Shown here: positions 45,665-57,389 of the stretch, piece by piece
Numbering within the stretch: position 1 is the stretch's first letter
How the letters are laid out: every line of letters starts with the position of its first letter
NCBI RefSeq assembly: GCF_017551775.1
Contig: NZ_JAFZKX010000091.1
Span: 1 to 64,000, forward strand
DNA from: Fibrobacter sp.
GTDB taxonomy: Bacteria; Fibrobacterota; Fibrobacteria; Fibrobacterales; Fibrobacteraceae
Direction of reading: 5' to 3'
DNA: 64,000 nucleotides
The notes under the pieces: model-generated
The model's database searches: none
Seen by the model: only the letters and a program-made list of their open reading frames with translations
Told to the model about the DNA's origin: nothing
Program-made: the position numbers and the translations under genes

Positions 45665-46846
45665 TTACATGTCGCCCATGTCAATCTTCGCCTTGTCGCG
45701 AATGCGAGTCAGCAAGAGGCCCAGAACCAGGTATACGATAGCCTGGACGGCGAGCTTGTATAGCTTGGGCGCTACGTCGTAGATGTCGGCGCCCATCTGC
45801 TCGATGGAAAGCCAGGCGGGAACCGCGAACGTGCTCGGGAGTATGTACGAAATCGCCTCCATCCAGCGGGGCATCAGGTAGGTGGGCCAGCTGAAGTTCG
45901 CGAGGAACAATACCGGGATGGACAAGTACAGGAACAACTGCATGCTTGTTTCGCGACGCAGGAATATCTGCGAGATGACCATACCGAAGTTGATGACGGA
46001 GGCGAGGAATACGATCGAGAAAACGACCATGGGCAAAAGCTCGCCACGACGCGGGAAGTCGAATATGTTATAGACGATGCAGTGGTAGAACAGGATAAAG
46101 GTGCAGTAGTGGACGAAGAAGGCCAGCGAACGACCGAAATAGCGGTATTCCGCAGTCTCGTTCTCGACGGGGCTATCGCGGAACTTCTTGCGGAAGCGCC
46201 TGTGGGCACGCGAACCGCCCAGCACGCAGATGCCGATGATGAGCGACTGCTGCAAGATTACGACAAGTACGCTCGGCACCACATAGTTGGCGTAGCCACC
46301 GGTACTGTTGAATAGCGTCTGGATGCTGATGGGGATGGGGTCGCGCATGGCAATCGCCTTTGCCGACGGGACCTTCTTTTCTAGGGCTATCTGCTTGACT
46401 TTGTTTGTTGCTCCCACTGTCAGCGCGCAAGTGGAGAACGCGGTGCCGATTGCGCCATGGAACATCACGTAGGCGCCGTGCGTAAAGATGTTCACCGTCA
46501 CCTGGTGCTTGCCGCGGATATTCTTCTCCATGTCTTCGGGAATGACCATGAATCCGTAAATCTCGTCGCGGGCCATCGCCGCCTCGGCCTCTTGCATGTC
46601 GGTGTAGATGGATTTCACCTCGATCTGCTGCGCTGCCGACGCCATGCGGGTAAGGTCGCGGGACATGGCCGTATTGTCGAGGTCGACAACCGCCACGGGC
46701 ACCTTGGTTACCGTCTGGTGGATGTAAGGAACCGGATAGTAGAACGCGTAGATGACACCAGCCACCACGAGCAGGAGCACTGCGGCAGGGTCCGTGTAGA
46801 TGAGCTTCCATTCGGCGAAGGCTACTTTCAAGAGGCGCTTTATCAT
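45665..46846 (-). CDS. ABC-2 type permease (second of a pair)
   Basis: A 393-residue membrane protein with one N-terminal helix, a ~170-residue periplasmic domain, and five to six C-terminal helices, the layout of ABC-2 exporters of the YhhJ/YbhR kind (KVPVAVVDLDNTAMSRDLTRM; QLFLYLSIPVLFLANFSWPT). It overlaps the other permease gene by four bases (ATGA), so the two are translationally coupled and likely form a heterodimer. No ATPase gene is in the operon. Confidence 0.82.
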   Translation of the reverse strand: MIKRLLKVAFAEWKLIYTDPAAVLLLVVAGVIYAFYYPVPYIHQTVTKVPVAVVDLDNTAMSRDLTRMASAAQQIEVKSIYTDMQEAEAAMARDEIYGFMVIPEDMEKNIRGKHQVTVNIFTHGAYVMFHGAIGTAFSTCALTVGATNKVKQIALEKKVPSAKAIAMRDPIPISIQTLFNSTGGYANYVVPSVLVVILQQSLIIGICVLGGSRAHRRFRKKFRDSPVENETAEYRYFGRSLAFFVHYCTFILFYHCIVYNIFDFPRRGELLPMVVFSIVFLASVINFGMVISQIFLRRETSMQLFLYLSIPVLFLANFSWPTYLMPRWMEAISYILPSTFAVPAWLSIEQMGADIYDVAPKLYKLAVQAIVYLVLGLLLTRIRDKAKIDMGDM

Positions 46847-48006
46847 GCTTGTGCCTCCAGTTTTGCGGCTTCTTCGCGCTTGGTTTCCAGGCGCACGTGC
46901 TGCTTCCAGCGCATCGACATGAGGAACGCTCCGAGAATGTTCCAGAATATCGCCATCGCTATAAGGATTTCCATGCTATGCCATGTAGATGCCATATCCA
47001 CATCGCCAAGCATCATTGTCGACTGGATCATGAGCACGTGGGTGAGCGGCAAGATAAACGCGAAGCAACGTACGGCAAAGGGCATCGCCATCACGGGGAA
47101 GGTCTGACCGGCAAACGCGAAGGCAGGGCTTCCGATAATGCCCGCAGCACCGGTCGCCATTCTCATCAGGCCGAATATGCCCACAAATACGATACCCGCA
47201 CCGGAGCACGCCGCGATCATGAACAATTGCGCTGCGGCCGTCATCACGAATTCTTCGAAAGAAAGCGGGGCTAGCAACCTGTGGCAGTAGGCGTAGCAGC
47301 CGAGGGATTCAAGCCAGAGGATGATGTTCATCGGGAACACGCTTGCAAACCAGAGCGTAAATCTGGAACCGCCCGCATAGCCGATCATCTCTTTTACGCG
47401 GTGGTCGCGAAGCGGGTAAGATGCCACATACGCACCGACAATCATCGCCGCAAGGTGGAAAATCGCCGTCACGAGCCCGAGAACGAGGAATCCTTGGTAA
47501 TTGCTCTTCTGGTTTCCGACCGAATGGATCTGCACCTTCACGGGGTCTTCCATCTGGGCGGTAAACATCTCGCTACCCACCGCAGCCAGCACGGAACGAA
47601 TTTCCTTGGTCGCGAACATATTGGTGAGGTAGTTCTGCCCGCTGGAATACACGGGAATTACAGGAGCTTCCAGACGGAGCGCGCGCCGTTCCATATCGTT
47701 GGGGAACACGATAAACGCCTGGATTTCGCCCCGGATGACGGCATGCTCGCATTCGCCCATGTCGGCACACGCCATCTTTATATTGAGCACGGGGCTTGAA
47801 CGCAGTTTCGATTCGAGCTTGTCGGCAAGCTGGCTGTTGTCCTGCTTGACAACCCCGATGGGCACGTGCTGCACGATTTCCGAGGAGAACATCCCCATCG
47901 TGAAAAGGGATACGCTGATAGGCAACACCGTAAGAATCATCCACAGCACGACGTTGTGGCTGAAGTAGATTTTACGGACGGTTTTTAAAAGGCCATTCAA
48001 AACCAT
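46843..48006 (-). CDS. ABC-2 type permease (first of a pair)
   Basis: A 387-residue paralogue of the following permease: an N-terminal helix (VVLWMILTVLPISVSLFTMGM), a large periplasmic domain (VPIGVVKQDNSQLADKLESKL), then a cluster of C-terminal helices (AGQTFPVMAMPFAVRCFAFILPLTHVLMI, read as two segments) typical of ABC2_membrane_3 proteins. It is 12 bases downstream of the HlyD-like gene and would span the inner membrane, linking to that adaptor and the TolC-like channel. Confidence 0.82.
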   Translation of the reverse strand: MVLNGLLKTVRKIYFSHNVVLWMILTVLPISVSLFTMGMFSSEIVQHVPIGVVKQDNSQLADKLESKLRSSPVLNIKMACADMGECEHAVIRGEIQAFIVFPNDMERRALRLEAPVIPVYSSGQNYLTNMFATKEIRSVLAAVGSEMFTAQMEDPVKVQIHSVGNQKSNYQGFLVLGLVTAIFHLAAMIVGAYVASYPLRDHRVKEMIGYAGGSRFTLWFASVFPMNIILWLESLGCYAYCHRLLAPLSFEEFVMTAAAQLFMIAACSGAGIVFVGIFGLMRMATGAAGIIGSPAFAFAGQTFPVMAMPFAVRCFAFILPLTHVLMIQSTMMLGDVDMASTWHSMEILIAMAIFWNILGAFLMSMRWKQHVRLETKREEAAKLEAQA

Positions 48007-48018
48007 GGCGCGACCGGG

Positions 48019-49017
48019 TTACTTGATGGAATCGACGGACAACAGGACGCTCATGCCGGGCCTGAGATTTTCGACCTTCTGCGAGGGGCGCAGGCGAACT
48101 TCGAATGTCTTGAGGTCGAAACCGCCGCTTTCCTTGCTGCTGCGCCAGGTGGCATAGTCGCCCACGGAGGCGATGTAGCTTACTTCCATTTCGACATCCT
48201 TGTCGAGCGCAGGAATGTGCATCGTAAACTTCTTGCCCTTGGAAACATTCTTGAGCATGTCTTCGCGCAGGTGGAACACCGCCCAGGCATCGTTCAGGTC
48301 GGTCACTGCGATTACCGGCATGCCGGAACCGACGACTTCGCCTTCTTCGGCGAGCTTCAGGGAGACTTCGCCGCTGATGGGGCTACGGATCTTGGTTTCT
48401 TCGAGGTAGGCGTCCACTTCGGCGGTGGCGCCCTTGGCCTGGAGCACGAGGGCGTTTGCCGCTGCCTTGTCTTCGCTGCGGGCGCCGGCGACGGCCTGGT
48501 TGTACTGGGCCTTCGCCGCATCGGCGGCGGACTGGCTGGCCTTCATCTGAGTTTCGGCTTCGTCGCGCTTCTGGAGCGGGAGCACGCCTTCGTTAAAGAG
48601 TTTCTGCACGCGGTCGTAGGTGTTCTTCGCGAGCGTCGCTGCATCCTGAGCGCGATCGGCCATCGCCTTGAGGGCGGTAATGTCTTCGCTGCGGGCTCCG
48701 TTGCGGGCCTTGCTTGCCTGGGCGCGTGCTGCACCGAGGGCGCCCTGGGCCTGCATCTTCTTGGCTTCAATTTCCGGGCTGCTGATGATGGCGACGATGG
48801 AATCCTTCATTACCATGTCGCCCTCGTGCACGAACAGGCGTTCGATGCGGCCGGGGACCTTCCCGGCCACGAGCACGCGCCGTGCTTCCATTTGGCCTTG
48901 CAAGAACTGCTCGCGGGGCGCCGTTGCGAACTTTTGCAACTCCATCACGCCCAAAATGACGAGCGCGACCAGCCCTGCGACAATGATAATTTTACCGAGT
49001 GTCTTAAGCACGTTCAT
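48019..49017 (-). CDS. HlyD/EmrA-type membrane fusion protein
   Basis: A 332-residue adaptor with one N-terminal membrane helix (IIIVAGLVALVILGVMEL), lipoyl halves (LVAGKVPGRIERLFVHEGDMVMK and IRSPISGEVSLKLAEEGEVV), and between them a long alpha-hairpin with repeated ARSED segments. It would bridge the ABC-2 permeases in the inner membrane and the TolC-like protein in the outer membrane. The start codon overlaps the TolC-like stop by one base. Confidence 0.88.
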   Translation of the reverse strand: MNVLKTLGKIIIVAGLVALVILGVMELQKFATAPREQFLQGQMEARRVLVAGKVPGRIERLFVHEGDMVMKDSIVAIISSPEIEAKKMQAQGALGAARAQASKARNGARSEDITALKAMADRAQDAATLAKNTYDRVQKLFNEGVLPLQKRDEAETQMKASQSAADAAKAQYNQAVAGARSEDKAAANALVLQAKGATAEVDAYLEETKIRSPISGEVSLKLAEEGEVVGSGMPVIAVTDLNDAWAVFHLREDMLKNVSKGKKFTMHIPALDKDVEMEVSYIASVGDYATWRSSKESGGFDLKTFEVRLRPSQKVENLRPGMSVLLSVDSIK

Positions 49018-50798
49018 TACTTTGCCTCCGTTTTTTCAGCCGAAGTTTCTTTTTGTGCGGAATCCGCGGTTTTTGCCGCATCCGTCTGGTTTGCCGGTTC
49101 CTGCGCCGGCGCTTCTGTCGCTACCTGCTGTTCGGCAGGGGTAGCCGTATTTCCGTTTGCCGTGCTGTCGGCGGGTGTCGCTGCTGCGCTATCGGCCGGG
49201 ACGGCGGTCTCGACTGTATTTTCGGTAGCTGCGGGCGCTTCGACGGGCTTTGCCTTGCCCATCAGGGAACCGGCGGATTCGATTTCACCGGCGGCTTCCA
49301 GCAGGCCGAGCCATGCGACAACGGCGTCGTAATGTGCCTTCAGGTCGGCAACTTGCAGGCGAGAAAGGGAAAGTTCTGCGTCCACCACGTCGAGGCCGGT
49401 CGCAAGGCCCGCTTCGTATGCGCGGGTCTGGCTGCGGAGCGCTTCGTCGGCGAGTTCGCGCGTCTTCACGAGGCTCGTGAGGCGGCTTTTGGCGTGTTCC
49501 ATTTCGCGCCAGCGCTTTTCCACGAGCAGGTTGATGTTGTCGAGAGTCTGTTCTTCCTTGCTGACGAGGGAGCGTTCCATCGCCTTTGCGGAAGTTACCT
49601 TTGCGCGGGATTCCGCACCGCCTAAAATCGGGAGGTCCCATTGCGCTTTTGCGCCGACGGCCCATTCGGGCTCGAGAATGGTCAAGTCTTTCGTATAGAG
49701 TTCGCGGTAGCCGAACAATGCGACGGTCGGGAACCAGTCGGCACGCGCTGCGCGCACGGCGTCGTGGCTGCGCTTGCGTTCCGTACGGAGCTGCCTGAGC
49801 CCTGGGTGCTTTTCGCGGGCCATCTGCTTGAATTCTTCCAGGCTGCGATCGAGTTCGGGCGCTTCCACCGGGGTCGTTGCCGAAATGCTCGTGTCGGTGT
49901 GGAGCAGGCTTGCGAGCGCCATGCGGGCAAGCGACTGGTCACGCAGGGCGTCTTCGAGGGCGTTTTGCGCCTCGGCCAGCGCGACTTCGGCACGCAGGCG
50001 TTCCGCCTTGCTGATCTGGCCGCCTTCTTCCAACTTTTTGGAACGTTCCAGGTGGCCTTCCAGGTTCTTCATCGTCGTTTCGCGCAGCACCGTGAGTTCT
50101 TCGGCCAGGCGCAGCATGAAGTATTTCGTGGTGACATCCATCAGGATGGCGTTTTGCGCCATGTCGAATTCAGCCTTGCGGGCGTTCACATTCTCTTTTG
50201 CCGCATCGTAGGCGGAATAAATCTTGAGGCCGGTGAAAATGGGCCAAACGACGGTTACGCGAGCGTTGAAGAACACGTCGTCCTGCACCTTCATGCCGAA
50301 ATCGCTTTCATCGATCTTCTTTTTGGCGGCATCGCTATAGATATCCGCGGACTGCTGGGCAAACGTTTCGGGAGAACCAGTCCCCAACTTTTCCTTAAGG
50401 GCGTTTTCGGCATAAGCCTTGGCCATCTCGTCGCTACCAGTCTGGGCCAAAGCCCCTTCGTACGCTTGTTTATAGCCAGCCGACGCTTTGTTGTAGGCGT
50501 TAATGTACGCCTTGGAATAGGCGGATGCACCGGCGATTTCGCTCAGCGGTTCCTGTAGGCTGCTCAAGTCGATGGTGATGGGGTCGTTGATCTTCGTGAC
50601 GCTTGCCGAAAGGGAAACTTTGGGTAAAAAGCGCGAACGCGCTTCGATACGGCCGCTTTCGGCCATTTCGACTTTAGCCTTTTCGGCTTTAATCTGGGAA
50701 TTGTTGGATTTCGCCATGTCGATGGCTTCCTGCAGAGTCAGCGGGGAGGCCACGGCCAAAGCGCCCAACGAAACAATGTAAAGCAAGCACTTTTTCAT
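49017..50798 (-). CDS. TolC-family outer-membrane channel protein
   Basis: Start taken at ATG 50798, giving a signal peptide (KKCLLYIVSLGALAVASP); the open frame runs further upstream to 50978 but lacks such a signal. The 593-residue protein has the two-fold TolC architecture: long helices with heptads (LTLQEAIDMAKSNNSQIKAEKAKV; second repeat near TPVEAPELDRSLEEFKQMAREKHPGL) and two beta-strand pairs. The C-terminal ~80 residues are an Ala/Thr/Glu/Pro low-complexity tail not usual for TolC. First gene of the TolC-HlyD-ABC2-ABC2 operon. Confidence 0.87.
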   Translation of the reverse strand: MKKCLLYIVSLGALAVASPLTLQEAIDMAKSNNSQIKAEKAKVEMAESGRIEARSRFLPKVSLSASVTKINDPITIDLSSLQEPLSEIAGASAYSKAYINAYNKASAGYKQAYEGALAQTGSDEMAKAYAENALKEKLGTGSPETFAQQSADIYSDAAKKKIDESDFGMKVQDDVFFNARVTVVWPIFTGLKIYSAYDAAKENVNARKAEFDMAQNAILMDVTTKYFMLRLAEELTVLRETTMKNLEGHLERSKKLEEGGQISKAERLRAEVALAEAQNALEDALRDQSLARMALASLLHTDTSISATTPVEAPELDRSLEEFKQMAREKHPGLRQLRTERKRSHDAVRAARADWFPTVALFGYRELYTKDLTILEPEWAVGAKAQWDLPILGGAESRAKVTSAKAMERSLVSKEEQTLDNINLLVEKRWREMEHAKSRLTSLVKTRELADEALRSQTRAYEAGLATGLDVVDAELSLSRLQVADLKAHYDAVVAWLGLLEAAGEIESAGSLMGKAKPVEAPAATENTVETAVPADSAAATPADSTANGNTATPAEQQVATEAPAQEPANQTDAAKTADSAQKETSAEKTEAK

Positions 50799-50945: not shown

Positions 50946-50974
50946 AAAAAGGAACCCGTTTGCGCGGGTTCCTT
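50946..50974 (-). terminator. Intrinsic terminator of the VTC/DUF4956 operon
   Basis: On the minus strand AAGGAACCCG/CGGGTTCCTT with a six-base loop and a T run, 29 bases after the lamin-tail lipoprotein stop codon. The stretch 50799-50945 holds one more small palindrome (GCGCCAG-TGAA-CTGGCGC, near 50895) and no gene. Confidence 0.8.
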
Positions 50975-51003: not shown

Positions 51004-52662
51004 TTAAATCTTGCCCGGAGTCGGAAGAGCGACCTCCCAGGCCTTGGCTTCGTAGCCCATGGTGGTCTTGTCTACGCGGTGCAGGCTGAAACCGAAACCG
51101 TCCGCCTCGGTGAGACCGTTCCAGTTGTCGGAATAGAGCGTCGCGTCGTGCCAGACGTAGAAGTATTTGGTAATTCCGCCTTCCGTTTCCTTGGAGAAGG
51201 GTTCCTTGACCGCAATCGTTTCACCGCGGTTCGAAAGCTTGCCCTTGTAGGTCACGATCTGTACGTCGGCAGGAATCGAGTAAGTGCTGCGGACGAAATC
51301 GGCGTTCCAGGTGGTAATTCCGAATGCCTGCATGTCCACATCTTCGAGCGTTTCGGGAATCAGGAGCAAAAGGCCCTTCGCGGGGATGGTCATGCTCGAA
51401 AATTCCATGTTGATACCTTCGACCTTCCATCCCTTCTGCACGGAGGCGCTGTAGAGGGTGACGGCGGCGTCCGAACCGTTCACGATTTCCATGAATTCGA
51501 ACGGGACCGTGGTATTGGCTGTAGCCGGATGGTAGTTGATTTCGTTGATGTAGAGGGAGCCTACCAGGAGGGCGGAGTTCTTTTCGCCGGGGGTCGCCGT
51601 GGCCAGCGGGCCCTGGGCGGTGGAACCATCACTCAGGTCAATGACACCGCTCGTCGCGGTCGTTGCGGGCACCCAGATGCTCGATTCGTCGCCTTCCTGC
51701 GGGCCGCGCAGATAGAATTCACCGCCATCGGGAGCGACAATCAGTTCATCGTCAAATGCCGTATTGGCATCGAGAACGAGGTAGCCCTTCGCAGGCACGG
51801 TTCCGCTCTTGATGCTGAGCGTCTGGTTACGGCGCTTGATTTCGACCAGCCAGCCCGTAATGTCGACAGGCTGATTACCTGCGTTGTAGACTTCGATCCA
51901 GGAATCTTCGCCGGCCTTGTACGGCTTGATTTCGTTGATGCGGACGTTCGTCGGGGCAACCCACTGGTCACCGCCTACGCCCGGAGTGCCGCCGTCGGCC
52001 TTGCTTGCCGCCCAGGAATTGGGCTGGGCAGCGTTGCCGCCCACGTACACGAGGGAACGGCCCTTGCCGTCGGCCAGGCTCGGCCAAGGAGGTTCGTTAC
52101 TGAAGGCGCAGCTCACGTCACCTTCACCCTGGACCTTCACGTTGACCACGTCGCCTTCGTTGAAGAGCTTTACGTTCTGGGCATCATCCCACGGTCCAAA
52201 GAGCCTTCCGGCAAATGTCGGGTAGGCTTTCTTGAATTCGGTGGGGTCGTTTGTGACGACCACGTATTCACCCTTCTTGAGGGGCTCTGCCGGGAATGTG
52301 TAATCGACGGCGCCGCTCAAGTGAAGGAAGAAGTTCTGCATGTTGTCCATGTCCATGCCGCCCGCGATGTAGATTTCAATCCATTCGAGCTTGGAATCCT
52401 TCGCGTGGTACATGATTTCGGAGCAGGCCATCTGCGGAGGAGCGTCGTTGGACAAGGAAGAACTGGACTTCGGCAAGGAAGCGCTGCTTCCGGGAAGGCC
52501 ATCACTGCTTCCGGGGATGCTTCCGCTGCTTCCGGGATCTCCCGCGCTGTTCGGCACAGAGGCGGAACTATCGGGATCTGTGGAAGAACCATTATCGCAT
52601 GCGGAGAATGCTCCGAGCATCGAGATTAAGGTTCCGGTCAAAAGCCACTTTTTCATGTCCAT
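51004..52662 (-). CDS. Lipoprotein with three lamin-tail domains
   Basis: Start at ATG 52662 (AAGGA eight bases upstream), giving a lipoprotein signal MDMKKWLLTGTLISMLGAFSA-C (Cys22). A ~50-residue Ser/Pro/Gly linker (GSSGSIPGSSDGLPGSS) follows. Three lamin-tail domain-like beta sandwiches come next: SEIMYHAKDSKLEWIEIYIAGG (~residues 75-165), VRINEIKPYKAGEDSWIEVYNAG (~235-330) and LYINEINYHPATA (~380-480); each starts with the I-N-E-I type strand. In bacteria such domains occur in surface or secreted proteins, often with CotH-like kinases. Last gene of the VTC operon, 43 bases after the VTC gene. It is probably an outer-membrane or surface partner of the exported product. Confidence 0.78.
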   Translation of the reverse strand: MDMKKWLLTGTLISMLGAFSACDNGSSTDPDSSASVPNSAGDPGSSGSIPGSSDGLPGSSASLPKSSSSLSNDAPPQMACSEIMYHAKDSKLEWIEIYIAGGMDMDNMQNFFLHLSGAVDYTFPAEPLKKGEYVVVTNDPTEFKKAYPTFAGRLFGPWDDAQNVKLFNEGDVVNVKVQGEGDVSCAFSNEPPWPSLADGKGRSLVYVGGNAAQPNSWAASKADGGTPGVGGDQWVAPTNVRINEIKPYKAGEDSWIEVYNAGNQPVDITGWLVEIKRRNQTLSIKSGTVPAKGYLVLDANTAFDDELIVAPDGGEFYLRGPQEGDESSIWVPATTATSGVIDLSDGSTAQGPLATATPGEKNSALLVGSLYINEINYHPATANTTVPFEFMEIVNGSDAAVTLYSASVQKGWKVEGINMEFSSMTIPAKGLLLLIPETLEDVDMQAFGITTWNADFVRSTYSIPADVQIVTYKGKLSNRGETIAVKEPFSKETEGGITKYFYVWHDATLYSDNWNGLTEADGFGFSLHRVDKTTMGYEAKAWEVALPTPGKI

Positions 52663-52705
52663 AAGGGCCATCCTTTTTGAGGTTTTACGCTCGGTATTAG
52701 AAATC

Positions 52706-53524
52706 CTAGAAGTTCCCGGCCAATTTCGTCCAGTAGGGGGACTTGAATCGGCGAGGGTTCTCGTAAACACGTTTCCATTCGGCTGCCGCATTTCCGAATT
52801 TAGAAAATGCGGAATGCTTGAGGTTCAAAAATCTTATCAGGTCGAACATCCAGTAAGGAACCTGTGAGCAGGGGCACTTCAATTCGAGCACGGCGTCCAT
52901 TCCCGGCTGGAAGAAGCGGGGAAGGCCTGTCGAATGCATGTAGTGCGGGTCCACCGTGTAGTCGAAACCGTTCTCTTCGCGGAAGCGCATGCCCGTATCG
53001 ATTGTCACGCGGGAATATTCCTCGCGGAGCCCGAACCAGGCGCGACGCTTGTACTGCGTCAAAAGGCGCGGATGAGCCCCGTGGAGTTCCGTCTTGTACA
53101 GGAAATCCTTGAGGTACATGCGGTCCTTGTCTGTTTTGCAGGGCCATTCCTCGGGCTTCATGTGCCAGACTTCGCCCGGGTTGATTCCCTTGATGGTGGC
53201 GCGGCTCTTGTAACAGATGCTCCTGATTTTGCGCTTCACCTCGAAATGGAACGTACCGTCCTGTGCGGGGTGTTCCCCGTAGGTACGGATGCGCATGTTG
53301 AAACGGTCCAGAAGCTGTTTCTTTTTCCAGCCCAGGAACGTCCACTTCGGGGAGTCCAGGTACAGGTTCGTAATCCAGTAGAAACCGCCCGGAGTAATCT
53401 TGGAATAGTAGTCCTCTTCGCAGTACGGGGCAAGGAAAGCACCGATCCGGTCCGCCCATTCGACGGGGATGTGGTACTTGAGCTCGAAACGTTCGAGAAG
53501 ACTAAAACCGCGGGCTTCCGCCAT
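52706..53524 (-). CDS. VTC-domain protein (polyphosphate polymerase fold)
   Basis: A 272-residue soluble protein with the tunnel-shaped triphosphate-tunnel fold of VTC/Vtc4 catalytic domains. The basic/acidic residues that line the tunnel are in place: ERFELKYHI (11-19), NLYLDSP (53-59), FNMRIRTYG (75-83), FHFEVKRK (92-99), QYKRRAWFG (157-165), SRVTIDTGMRFR (171-182), AVLELKC (211-217) and FSKFG (240-244). In yeast this domain polymerises ATP phosphate into polyphosphate; bacterial members are little studied and could use other phosphate or nucleotide substrates. No membrane segment: cytosolic. One base separates it from the TolC-like stop. Confidence 0.82.
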   Translation of the reverse strand: MAEARGFSLLERFELKYHIPVEWADRIGAFLAPYCEEDYYSKITPGGFYWITNLYLDSPKWTFLGWKKKQLLDRFNMRIRTYGEHPAQDGTFHFEVKRKIRSICYKSRATIKGINPGEVWHMKPEEWPCKTDKDRMYLKDFLYKTELHGAHPRLLTQYKRRAWFGLREEYSRVTIDTGMRFREENGFDYTVDPHYMHSTGLPRFFQPGMDAVLELKCPCSQVPYWMFDLIRFLNLKHSAFSKFGNAAAEWKRVYENPRRFKSPYWTKLAGNF

Positions 53525-53525
53525 A

Positions 53526-54905
53526 TTACTTCAGCCCCTCGCGAAGATGGTTCACGACGCCTTCGCGTGCAAGAATGCCAGCATAGTTCAGCAGTTCGAG
53601 ATAGCGGGCGAAAATATCGTATTCGAGTTTCACCGCCTTCATGTCGCTTTCAAGCGCGCTTTCTTTTGCGCGCAGGAGGAGCAGCGGGTCGGAACCGGCG
53701 TTACGTGCGAACTGTTCCATGAACCCGCTCGCGTTCACCTGTTCCACGAATTCCTTCTGGACCTTCCACTGGCCGATCAAGGCGAGCACTTCTTCGGTAA
53801 GGCGTGCCACCTTCTGGTTGATATCGCGCACGTCGCTCAGGTAGTCGCTTTCGGCATCGAGCTTGGCCACCTGGAGCTTCAGGTCGGAATCCTTGCCGCT
53901 GTCGAAGAACGGCAGGCGGAAGGCGAGGTTCACGAAGAACTTGTCGGCCGTCTTGCGGTTGTCCTTGTCCGGGACGAGCACGTTGGCAAGGCCCGTGCAG
54001 TTAAGCGCGGTCTCGCACCCCGTCTGTTTCTTGAACTCGTCTACGTAATCCGCGTAGGCACCCGTACCAAAGACATCCGTTGCGTCCAGGTCCTTGTACT
54101 TTTCCATCCGGGATTCGATCTGCAGGGAGTAGCCGATGCCGATATGCGAGATGTAGTCGCGGCCCTTGCTCACGTCCTGCTTGGCCTGCGCCACTTCGCT
54201 GTCGCGCTTGCCCTTGGCCATCGCCACCAGCGGGAAGTTCTCGTCCACTTCGACGCCGTTAGAGAGGTTCTGTTCGAGTTCTTCCATCGTCGGGAGGAAC
54301 GAGGAATCCAGATCGACACCATCGAAATCGGGTACCCAGATCTTCATCTTGAGTTCCGCATCGCGGAGGGCGGTGCTGTCCGAAAGCAAGTCTGCGCGGA
54401 TGCTCGCACCCTTTTCGAGAGTGCTCATCAGGTCTTCGGCATTGAACGTGGCCGAGCCGGACTTGAGGTGCAGAACCTCGACGCGGTCGGTGTTCACCTG
54501 CAAAAGCTGCTTGTTGATGTCATTGATTTTCTTGCGCATTACGAAGCGCACGCCGCGTTCGTAGCGGTCGTAGAGCAACAGCGAGCGTTCCACGCCAAAG
54601 CGGGCCTTTTCGTAGTTCTTTACTGCTTCGTAGCGTTCACGGTCGGCGCTGCTTTCACCGAACGTCTTGGGGCTCATGCGGAGCTCAAAATCATGCTTTG
54701 CAAAGCTGAAACCGTCCAGCTGGTAACGGAGTTCCAGCTTGTCCCAGAGTTTCGTGCTTCTGCCGGAGGCCGTAGCCTCGGAACGCTTTTGTGCCGCCTC
54801 GTAACGGGGGTCGCTCTGTGCGGACTGGACGAGCCTGTCCCAAGTGAGCGGGCCTGCGAATACTGCCACCGAAAGGATGGCAGGGATGGCTGCGATACGC
54901 TTCAT
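53526..54905 (-). CDS. TolC-like outer-membrane channel protein in the VTC operon
   Basis: A 459-residue protein with a signal peptide (AAIPAILSVAVFAGPLTW) and two halves of long helices (RLVQSAQSDPRYEAAQKRSE; DLKLQVAKLDAESDYLSDVRDINQKVARLTEE), a diverged TolC/outer-membrane efflux protein. It has a small insert with two cysteines (TGCETALNCTG, near 300). It is not closely similar to the TolC-like protein of the neighbouring operon. Its start overlaps the adaptor gene's stop by one base, so it is translated with the adaptor and should form the exit channel for the material handled by this operon. Confidence 0.72.
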   Translation of the reverse strand: MKRIAAIPAILSVAVFAGPLTWDRLVQSAQSDPRYEAAQKRSEATASGRSTKLWDKLELRYQLDGFSFAKHDFELRMSPKTFGESSADRERYEAVKNYEKARFGVERSLLLYDRYERGVRFVMRKKINDINKQLLQVNTDRVEVLHLKSGSATFNAEDLMSTLEKGASIRADLLSDSTALRDAELKMKIWVPDFDGVDLDSSFLPTMEELEQNLSNGVEVDENFPLVAMAKGKRDSEVAQAKQDVSKGRDYISHIGIGYSLQIESRMEKYKDLDATDVFGTGAYADYVDEFKKQTGCETALNCTGLANVLVPDKDNRKTADKFFVNLAFRLPFFDSGKDSDLKLQVAKLDAESDYLSDVRDINQKVARLTEEVLALIGQWKVQKEFVEQVNASGFMEQFARNAGSDPLLLLRAKESALESDMKAVKLEYDIFARYLELLNYAGILAREGVVNHLREGLK

Positions 54906-56005
54906 TATTTGTTACCGTTTTTCTTGAGGTGTTTAACGCTTGTCTCGGTGATGGTCACCATCTCGCCCAGGAGGAACGGGTTCGCTTCGGGAATCTTGAT
55001 GGTCACTTCGCGGCCGTAGACGGGCAGTTCGGGCATCTTCCACATACGGGTCGGGAAGGGGACGATGCGGCTAGAGAGACCGACGACTTCACCGACAACG
55101 GCCTTGCCCGTACCGGCGAGCGTGGTCACCTTCACGGCTTCGCCCACGTCCATGTTCTGGTAAATCTGTTCGTTGATGTAACCGCGCACCAGGGTCGGGC
55201 TCTTGTGCGTGAGGGTCACGATCGGGGCGAAGCTCGAAACCTTTTCGCCGTCGCGCACGTTCACGTCACCCACCACCCAGTTTTCTTTTGCAATCTGGAT
55301 GAGTTCCTGCTGCTGCTTCTTGAGTTCTTCGAGTTCCTTCTTCAGGTTCTCGGCTTCGCTCTTGCCGGTGGTCTTCTGGAGCCTGCCGCTGCCGCGGAGC
55401 AGCGCAATCTGTTCGTTCGCGCTCTTGGTCGCAAGCGCAAGTTCGTTCTTGAGGCTCTTGATGCGCATGGCCATCGCGTCGTTGCCGTCACCACCGGAAT
55501 TGGAGTTCGAGAGGCTCTTGAGCTTGGCGGAAATGGCCTTGTTGCTGTTGTATTCCGTTTCGAGGTTGCGGATTTCGGCGGAGAGGGCCAGGCGGCGGGT
55601 CTCGAGGTTCGCCTTGACTTCGGCCACCTTCTGGTCGATTTCGGCGGAGCTCAGGTTGCTGCGGCCTTCGAGGGCGTCAAGTTCGCGGGTCACTTCGGAG
55701 ATGCGGAGCGTAAGGTCGGGGCGGTTGATTTCGACAATCGTGTCGCCCACCTGGATTTCCTGGCCGGGAACCACGTGCACCTTCACAATTTCGGTAGCGG
55801 AAGGCACGCTGATGATGGTTTCACTAGCTTCGGCGATACCGCGGAACATGGCGGCCTTGCCCTGGTACATAAAGCCAAGCACAATCGCCATGATAAGGCA
55901 AATAATCCAAGCGAGAGAGAGCTTGTGACTGTAGACGTATGCCACGCCGGCGTTGTTCTTGTGGGTATTCCAGAAATTATCGAGCAAATCTTCAATCTTG
56001 TTCAT
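54905..56005 (-). CDS. HlyD-like adaptor in the VTC operon
   Basis: A 366-residue protein with a ~28-residue cytoplasmic N-terminus, one membrane helix (LSLAWIICLIMAIVLGFMY) and a periplasmic part with a lipoyl-like half (PSATEIVKVHVVPGQEIQVGDTIVEINRP), a long coiled coil (~residues 100-240, with KSEAENLKKELEELKKQQQE), and the second lipoyl half (WVVGDVNVRDGEKVSSFAPI) followed by a beta-barrel. The long coiled coil is that expected of an adaptor docking onto TolC. Nine bases downstream of the DUF4956 gene; stop overlaps the next start. Confidence 0.78.
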   Translation of the reverse strand: MNKIEDLLDNFWNTHKNNAGVAYVYSHKLSLAWIICLIMAIVLGFMYQGKAAMFRGIAEASETIISVPSATEIVKVHVVPGQEIQVGDTIVEINRPDLTLRISEVTRELDALEGRSNLSSAEIDQKVAEVKANLETRRLALSAEIRNLETEYNSNKAISAKLKSLSNSNSGGDGNDAMAMRIKSLKNELALATKSANEQIALLRGSGRLQKTTGKSEAENLKKELEELKKQQQELIQIAKENWVVGDVNVRDGEKVSSFAPIVTLTHKSPTLVRGYINEQIYQNMDVGEAVKVTTLAGTGKAVVGEVVGLSSRIVPFPTRMWKMPELPVYGREVTIKIPEANPFLLGEMVTITETSVKHLKKNGNK

Positions 56006-56014
56006 CTTTGCCCC

Positions 56015-56698
56015 CTACATTTCCGTCGTCGCGTCCTGCATCATGAACTGCACGTCCGAGATGCCTTCGATTTTGGAGAGCTCGGTCAAGATTTCGGCGG
56101 CGGGCTTTGTCGCACGGAGCCTTACCTGGTACGCGACATCGAGACGGGCACCGCCGTCGACTTCGCGCATCGTGATAAGGATGAACGTCTTGAGGCTGCT
56201 CTTCATGAGGTCTTCGATCTGGCCGCGGACCTTGGGTTCGTTGGGGAGTGCAAAGCGGAGCATGCCGTCAAAGAAGTGCTTGGTACCGAGACCGGTGCGG
56301 GAGAGGAGGAAGGCGACGCAGCAGAAGGCTACCGTACCGCCGGCAGCGGCACCCCAGGCATACACGCCACAGCCGATACCCGCGCCTAGCGAGGCAAATA
56401 TGAACATGATATCTCGCGGGTCCTTGAAGCTCGTACGGAAGCGGACCACCGAGAGTGCGCCCATCATGCCGAGGCCGCGGCCAACGTTATCGCCGATGGC
56501 CTGCATAATCATTGCTGCGGCAACCGAGCTCAGGACGATGCCCTGGACGAAGTTGCGGGAGTAAGAGAGACCGAGGAAGGTCTTTTCGTATGTCCACCCG
56601 ATCATGGATGAGAGGATGAATGCCAATGTCAGTGTGTAGATCAGCGTGATGATCGTTGCATTGGTCGTACTAGATTGGACCGCGAGAAGGTCTAGCAT
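56015..56698 (-). CDS. DUF4956 membrane protein, first gene of the VTC operon
   Basis: A 227-residue protein with four or five hydrophobic segments in the first 135 residues and a soluble ACT-like C-terminal domain (residues ~145-227; DVAYQVRLRATKPAAEILTELSK). The conserved-looking cytoplasmic motif GALSVVRFRTSFKDPRD (80-96) is typical of DUF4956 proteins, which often neighbour VTC-domain genes in bacteria, and recalls the MgtC-type membrane proteins. Biochemical role unknown; a channel or synthase partner for VTC is plausible. No -35/-10 elements are convincing in the AT-rich 250 bases upstream. Confidence 0.8.
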   Translation of the reverse strand: MLDLLAVQSSTTNATIITLIYTLTLAFILSSMIGWTYEKTFLGLSYSRNFVQGIVLSSVAAAMIMQAIGDNVGRGLGMMGALSVVRFRTSFKDPRDIMFIFASLGAGIGCGVYAWGAAAGGTVAFCCVAFLLSRTGLGTKHFFDGMLRFALPNEPKVRGQIEDLMKSSLKTFILITMREVDGGARLDVAYQVRLRATKPAAEILTELSKIEGISDVQFMMQDATTEM

Positions 56699-56948
56699 AG
56701 TATCTCCATAATTTATGTCGTTTGTTTTGCGTTCCCATAATCTACTTAAAATAGCCTAATTTTAGAGCCGTTTTCTGTAAATTTGGGTCAACAAAAACAT
56801 GTTAATTTCCTTAAAAAAGGCGTTAAGTGATGTTTTCACCCGAAAAATAGATAAATGTCTCTGTAAACTCACGTAAAGAAGAGTTTATATAACGATTTCC
56901 GTTGTAAACGGGTACACCAAAAACGGCCGAATTCTTATTTTTTTTTAC

Positions 56949-57389
56949 ATGAAACGGAAATGCAAAAGGCGTACGCCCATGACCCGTTCGCAGATGATGC
57001 GGGCGGTCCGTTCGGAGGATACCGTTCCCGAACTGCGGGTACGGAAGGCGCTTTTCCGCGACGGGTTCCGCTATCGCCTCCATTGCCATGACTTACCCGG
57101 TTCTCCGGACCTTTTCGTCTTGAAATACGGGGTGGTGGTGTTCGTGAACGGGTGCTTTTGGCACCAGCACGGTTGCAAGTTCACGGGCCGCCCCAAGAGC
57201 AATCCCGTTTTTTGGAACGATAAATTTACAAACAACGTTGTTAGGGACATAAAGACGGGCTGGAAACTTTCTCTGCTCGGTTTCCGCACGGCGACCGTAT
57301 GGGAATGCTCCATCAAGAACGCCTTCGAACGCACCATGGAACTGTTGGAAGCTTTCATTTTGGGCGACGACGAGACCATCGAAATATGA
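56949..57389 (+). CDS. vsr: Very-short-patch repair endonuclease (Vsr), orphan
   Basis: A 146-residue protein matching the Vsr family throughout: TRSQMMRAVRSEDTVPELRVRKAL, the catalytic Asp54 in GSPDLF, zinc ligand region VFVNGCFWHQHGCKF (His72, His74, Cys76) and a late Cys in WECSIK. Vsr nicks at T:G mismatches formed by deamination of 5-methylcytosine next to a Dcm-type methyltransferase. No cytosine methyltransferase gene is in the window. No ribosome-binding site precedes ATG 56949; ATG 56979 is an alternative start. The upstream 250 bases are AT-rich and featureless. Confidence 0.9.
   Translation: MKRKCKRRTPMTRSQMMRAVRSEDTVPELRVRKALFRDGFRYRLHCHDLPGSPDLFVLKYGVVVFVNGCFWHQHGCKFTGRPKSNPVFWNDKFTNNVVRDIKTGWKLSLLGFRTATVWECSIKNAFERTMELLEAFILGDDETIEI

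Follow-up and report, generated by a model that had tools for sequence, protein, structure and literature searches.

Polyphosphate (polyP) occurs outside several bacteria, and we know of no function assigned to the DUF4956 family of membrane proteins. In yeast, the VTC complex couples the synthesis of polyP to its translocation (PMC9911596), and in Gram-positive clusters a trio of genes encoding CotH, VTC and DUF4956 proteins is found beside pel (PMC7112168, PMC12345266), VTC genes also appearing with CotH in a locus of C. perfringens (PMC2879425). No synteny of the trio was described outside Pel (PMC12345266); contrary to that statement, it is present in the loci mapped here. The DNA analysed was a window of 64,000 nucleotides (positions 1-64,000 of contig NZ_JAFZKX010000091.1, Fibrobacter sp. 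assembly GCF_017551775.1), in which an operon spanning positions 51004-56698 joins VTC and DUF4956 genes to those of an HlyD-like adaptor, a TolC-like channel and a lipoprotein-like protein with lamin-tail domains (LTD). Judging from the sequences, this operon would on balance be a synthesis-coupled exporter of inorganic polyP that serves surface proteins, both the product and its export being our proposal. In the open-licence literature searched, no description of an HlyD/TolC version of the VTC/DUF4956 set was found, nor any bacterial polyP exporter or tested bacterial VTC.

The five minus-strand open reading frames (ORFs) lie head to tail in the order DUF4956, HlyD, TolC-like, VTC and LTD, with gaps of 9, -1, 1 and 43 bp, as an earlier note on this DNA had read them. 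The single terminator that it placed at the operon end was also recovered, as a hairpin formed by GGAACCCG and CGGGTTCC followed by a T-run (50972-50946; -19.6 kcal/mol, z -4.1), which none of 200 shuffles equalled in stability; it was not picked up by the consensus scan, probably because its stem pairs into the T-run. The five genes form one unit, in agreement with what had been proposed from the window alone, and their order recurs throughout Fibrobacterota. The whole genome contains a single VTC gene and a single DUF4956 gene.

About 80 loci were mapped in Fibrobacterota and sorted into types A and B. Type A loci follow the order of the window (DUF4956, HlyD, TolC, VTC and LTD), and among 58 of them DUF4956 was present in 58, HlyD in 57, TolC in 56 and LTD in 55; named Fibrobacter contigs (L193-L200) carry the locus as well. 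Type B loci consist of VTC followed by DUF4956; the pair is often preceded by a gene for a Cthe_2159-domain lipoprotein and followed by those for a Porin_O_P-like protein and CotH, and neither HlyD nor TolC was found in any of the 23 loci examined. The type B architecture is seen in L049-L071, where some CotH proteins carry CBM6. Overall, VTC was detected in 136 of the 168 Fibrobacterota genomes, 107 of which had type A VTC, and the type A HlyD profile matched 106 of the 168 (E<=1e-20), nearly always in single copy. When the VTC and HlyD scans were compared, the HlyD subfamily appeared in 106 of the 107 type A VTC genomes and in 0 of the 61 others, the sole exception being a genome (G149) with its VTC near a contig end. 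Moreover, HlyD lay on the VTC contig in 102 of the 106 genomes, the remaining four being fragmented assemblies. The adaptor is confined to type A VTC genomes and so is dedicated to type A VTC; unrelated neighbours do not share this HlyD, which supports the dedicated HlyD/TolC pair of the earlier note.

Beyond the phylum, a total of 84,980 species genomes were scanned with the type A VTC profile, yielding 180 relatives of which 80 were kept; built on type A VTC motifs, this set does not represent all VTCs without bias. Among 58 loci outside Fibrobacterota, HlyD was found in 53, TolC in 53 and DUF4956 in 48, and all four genes stood in one same-strand run in 42, most of the incomplete loci reaching a contig end or having an unrecognised gene in the place of TolC. 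The core (DUF4956, HlyD, TolC and VTC) was found in seven or more bacterial groups besides Fibrobacterota, its carriers including Desulfobacterales (Desulfobacterota), Bdellovibrio and Halobacteriovorax (Bdellovibrionota), Nitrospirales (Nitrospirota), Gammaproteobacteria (Methylococcales, Crenothrix and Woeseia), Planctomycetota, Delongbacteria and rumen Spirochaetales/UBP6. The order HlyD-TolC-VTC is nearly fixed, with DUF4956 either first or last, and the median core gaps are 11, -4 and -1 bp. VTC and DUF4956 are directly adjacent in type B and in many outside loci, and are split by HlyD and TolC in the window. Furthermore, over 100 loci the pairwise distances of the four core proteins show correlations of 0.93-0.97, and outside the phylum of 0.86-0.95, values that in part reflect shared species history. 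Conservation of the gene order goes far beyond what chance would give. In one locus (L144:2901-4688) a C25 (gingipain-type) peptidase gene lies just upstream of the HlyD-TolC-VTC-DUF4956 core; other rumen UBP6/Spirochaetales loci have a gene of similar size at that place, together with a gene of ~310 aa downstream without a recognised family.

The VTC protein of the window has 272 aa and comprises the VTC domain alone, without SPX or transmembrane (TM) domains. A phmmer search of PDB with this single sequence gave only a chance match and was uninformative, so that an alignment profile was needed, which matched yeast Vtc4 with an E-value of 7.7e-8. Across 50 VTC sequences of types A and B, 17 residues were invariant, 16 of them within the region aligned to Vtc4, where their equivalents are Y241, D243, R264, R266, Y268, E279, K281, K294, R296, R361, R373, D377, E426, K428, S457 and K458. 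All the tunnel residues tested (Vtc4 R264, R266, K281, R361, R373, E426 and K458) were invariant in the 50 sequences, including the three that were altered to inactivate Vtc4, namely R264, R266 and E426 (PMC9911596). In addition, an AlphaFold2 (AF2) model of the window VTC, with a predicted local distance difference test (pLDDT) score of 90, had yeast VTC chains as all of its 13 best PDB fold matches, and other tunnel enzymes (triphosphatases and cyclases) ranked below them. By alignment, the catalytic tunnel of Vtc4 is intact in the window VTC, and the protein is predicted to fold like Vtc4, in line with the earlier assumption that the tunnel could form. PPK1 was absent from the host genome, from 76 of 79 genomes of the genus (membership by our own count) and from 37 of 50 genomes outside Fibrobacterota, so that VTC is often the sole polyP polymerase identified, and the only one in most of these genomes, in which PPK2 was not searched for.

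The HlyD profile of the operon matches EmrA, LipC and MacA. The TolC-like protein starts with an N-terminal signal peptide, recognised by eye; 21 of 39 homologues match OEP, and the profile of the 39-member family matches a solved outer-membrane protein (5bun, E 2.2e-4). Across the loci mapped, no ABC, MFS or RND gene belongs to the core, which leaves DUF4956 as the sole candidate inner-membrane partner for HlyD/TolC. Outside Fibrobacteraceae, the HlyD of most lineages is extended at its C-terminus by ~300 residues that resemble propellers of the DUF3616, phytase-like and SdiA-regulated families, with weak matches in 17-18 of 37 members; the propeller-like domain is a separate gene in L082-L084, and the window HlyD is without it. 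This extension contains invariant acidic residues (for example L139:4669-6675, L169:5081-6841 and L082:5712-6668).

For DUF4956, five TM helices and a C-terminal ACT-like domain were predicted (AF2, pLDDT 77). In fold searches, the ACT part matched ACT domains and the C-terminal domain of MgtC (2lqj), all with weak E-values, and the TM part matched no solved structure; a TM-channel fold identity was accordingly dropped. The window protein has no match to PF02308 (MgtC), and in genome G167 a VTC-adjacent homologue scores above the cut-offs of DUF4956 and MgtC alike. The HHalign comparison of DUF4956 with MgtC gave 83% with a mixed alignment; with type B DUF4956 it was not significant and with an alignment of type A only it was weak, so that the link with MgtC rests on the mixed alignment and the bridging protein. 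The DUF4956 homologue of S. intermedius was independently described as MgtC plus ACT (PMC12345266), and DUF4956 is probably related to MgtC. The bridging protein belongs to a compact variant without HlyD/TolC (L046:5423-9309, G167), composed of the DUF4956/MgtC-like protein, an LTD lipoprotein, VTC and a Na/Pi cotransporter with a TIG domain.

The accessory genes are less constant than the core. With its start at 52662, the LTD protein has a lipoprotein-like N-terminus (LGAFSAC), which by eye is an imperfect lipobox with F at -3. LTD occurs in 55 of 58 type A loci within Fibrobacterota and in 3 of 58 outside, where CotH or other genes occupy its place, so it is largely an accessory of Fibrobacterota outside the wider core. 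The four-gene core is conserved across groups, and the joint occurrence of all five genes, as put forward in the earlier note, is largely limited to Fibrobacterota. Surface anchoring by LTD was rejected as the central function, since LTD is missing in 55 of the 58 outside loci.

CotH carries more weight than could be seen in the window. A total of ten CotH proteins are encoded in the host genome, all on contigs other than that of the operon, and among eight CotH loci inspected by eye six clearly start with a signal peptide or lipobox, one being cut at the edge and one unreadable. Within Fibrobacterota, 134 genomes had both VTC and CotH, 24 had neither, 2 had only VTC and 8 had only CotH (p 4e-20); at genus level, a coarse correction for relatedness, these numbers were 27, 11, 1 and 2, respectively (p 3e-7). 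CotH directly adjoins the core in several loci. However, it exceeded the cut-off in only 29 of the 50 genomes outside Fibrobacterota, and it was rejected as an obligatory partner and taken as a client that often accompanies the core without belonging to it. At G000:C5:29-5271 (L113-L115), three genes for secreted CotH proteins stand in tandem, two of them ending in a C-terminal domain that resembles, by eye, a type IX secretion sorting signal. No pel genes were seen near the window operon. Genes related to phosphate were found in or beside related cores: PHO4 transporters and phytase-like proteins in 2 loci each, permeases together with a binding protein of the Pst type in L173, and the Na/Pi cotransporter of G167.

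Upstream of the operon, the candidate promoter element (Table 1) showed partial conservation when 19 loci of the genus were aligned, and it tentatively resembles a Bacteroidetes-type -7 box; a sigma-70 promoter scan scored no better than shuffles. A Vsr mismatch endonuclease gene (56949-57389, plus strand) diverges from the operon and was seen in only two loci of the first mapping pass, so it is probably a recent insertion beside the promoter. Directly downstream lies a second exporter operon, TolC2-HlyD2-ABC2-ABC2 (45665-50797, minus strand), whose ABC-2 genes come with their own HlyD2/TolC2. It adjoins the VTC operon only in the genus Fibrobacter, in L048 and, partly and at contig ends, in the fragmentary Fibrobacterota contigs L186 and L189; this limited adjacency and the terminator-like hairpins in between led to its rejection as a part of the machine. 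As expected, a nucleotide search of E. coli genomes found nothing similar.

Table 1. Positions of the operon genes and control elements in the window, with family scores
Feature	Position	Strand	Evidence and remarks
DUF4956	56015..56698	-	PF16316 45.2 bits (Pfam cut-off 30.6); proposed inner-membrane component
HlyD-like periplasmic adaptor	54905..56005	-	HlyD_3 38.2 bits (cut-off 22.2)
TolC-like outer-membrane channel	53526..54905	-	OEP 20.3 bits, under cut-off 22; family profile supportive
VTC-domain polyphosphate polymerase homologue	52706..53524	-	PF09359 101.9 bits (cut-off 23)
Lipoprotein-like, three lamin-tail domains	51004..52662	-	PF00932 90.5 bits, three stretches (cut-off 34.3)
Intrinsic terminator	50946..50972	-	8-bp G+C-rich stem and T-run; closes operon
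Promoter-like element AAGTAGATTATGG (tentative)	56735..56747	-	upstream of DUF4956

In the mechanism proposed, VTC at the cytosolic face would polymerise the gamma-phosphate of ATP into polyP, and DUF4956 would dock VTC and let the chain cross the inner membrane, replacing the TM domains of yeast VTC. The HlyD adaptor and the TolC-like channel would then take the chain over the periplasm and the outer membrane, and at the surface polyP may be held or used by accessories such as the LTD lipoprotein and the secreted CotH kinases, whose genes lie elsewhere in the genome. The earlier note had suggested a route leading from cytosolic polymer or phosphate chemistry to the cell surface, for polymer export or for surface anchoring; its core idea holds, such a route being the reading favoured here, and anchoring has no direct support. 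ATP is scarce outside the cell, and a further suggestion is that polyP exported through DUF4956-HlyD-TolC and held by LTD proteins could be the phosphate donor of the secreted CotH kinases, an extension that we consider speculative and rather unlikely.

Several points weigh against this proposal. To our knowledge, activity has been demonstrated for no bacterial VTC of this type. When SIR_1593, the VTC homologue of S. intermedius, was deleted, no phenotype was reported, while deletions of its DUF4956 and CotH neighbours had one (PMC12345266). Moreover, no channel function is known for DUF4956, whose TM part matches no solved structure, the energy source for the crossing of the outer membrane is unexplained, the phosphate-related neighbours number only a handful of loci, and a PPK2, which was not searched for, may be present in these genomes.

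ACT domains usually bind small ligands, which counts towards a different view, in which HlyD/TolC would export another substrate (protein or polysaccharide) with VTC and DUF4956 as an energy or phosphate sensor gating the export. The regulatory role of MgtC proteins (cited in PMC12345266) and the altered amount of Pel upon deletion of the S. intermedius DUF4956 homologue (PMC12345266) point the same way. Nevertheless, no ABC, MFS or RND pump or polysaccharide synthase belongs to the core, LTD and CotH proteins bear export signals of their own, and VTC retains the full set of catalytic residues, so this view is judged improbable, if the strongest of those opposed to polyP export. A lower probability still is given to VTC yielding another phosphorylated product (a short oligophosphate, a phosphorylated carrier or the outcome of triphosphate hydrolysis), with the product or phosphate being exported; no bacterial VTC product is known to us, and the tunnel-enzyme superfamily does include triphosphatases and cyclases, which were among the fold matches, but both residues and fold are closer to VTC than to these enzymes. 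Finally, an intracellular polyP storage module beside an unrelated drug-efflux HlyD/TolC pair, which would suit the type B loci, where VTC and DUF4956 occur without HlyD/TolC, is largely refuted and highly improbable given the near-exclusive pairing of HlyD with type A VTC and a set with overlapping genes kept across several phyla even when DUF4956 shifts from front to back.

If polyP export is correct, the operon would represent a new class of machine spanning the envelope, in which a polymerase drives the export of an inorganic polymer through HlyD/TolC parts and no ABC, MFS or RND pump takes part. It also yields a concrete hypothesis on where secreted CotH kinases obtain their phosphate; if exported polyP were indeed their donor, the system would be both a first dedicated bacterial polyP exporter and an explanation of how kinases outside the cytoplasm are supplied. 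The operon joins extracellular polyP, DUF4956 and bacterial VTC in one conserved, testable cassette, which is present in cultured genera such as Fibrobacter, Bdellovibrio, Desulfoluna and Desulfonema.

Compared with the yeast VTC complex (Vtc4/Vtc3/Vtc1), the operon shares a tunnel polymerase, alike in catalytic residues and in fold, and, as proposed, the coupling of synthesis to membrane crossing; in contrast, its VTC lacks SPX and fused TM domains, the membrane part is a separate DUF4956 protein, and HlyD and TolC are added for a second membrane. With the Gram-positive pel accessory cluster it has in common the neighbouring VTC and DUF4956 (MgtC plus ACT) genes and a link with secreted CotH, whereas the window operon is without pel genes, CotH is unlinked in this genome, and a dedicated HlyD/TolC pair and LTD are present. 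The MgtC/SapB family shows the same combination of a multi-TM domain with a C-terminal ACT-like domain, and the G167 homologue passes both cut-offs, although the window DUF4956 has no PF02308 match and is here always found with VTC. Finally, the tripartite HlyD/TolC exporters (type I secretion, EmrAB-TolC and MacAB-TolC) likewise combine an HlyD-family adaptor with a TolC-like channel, while the core of this operon is free of ABC, MFS and RND proteins and DUF4956 would stand in the place of the pump.

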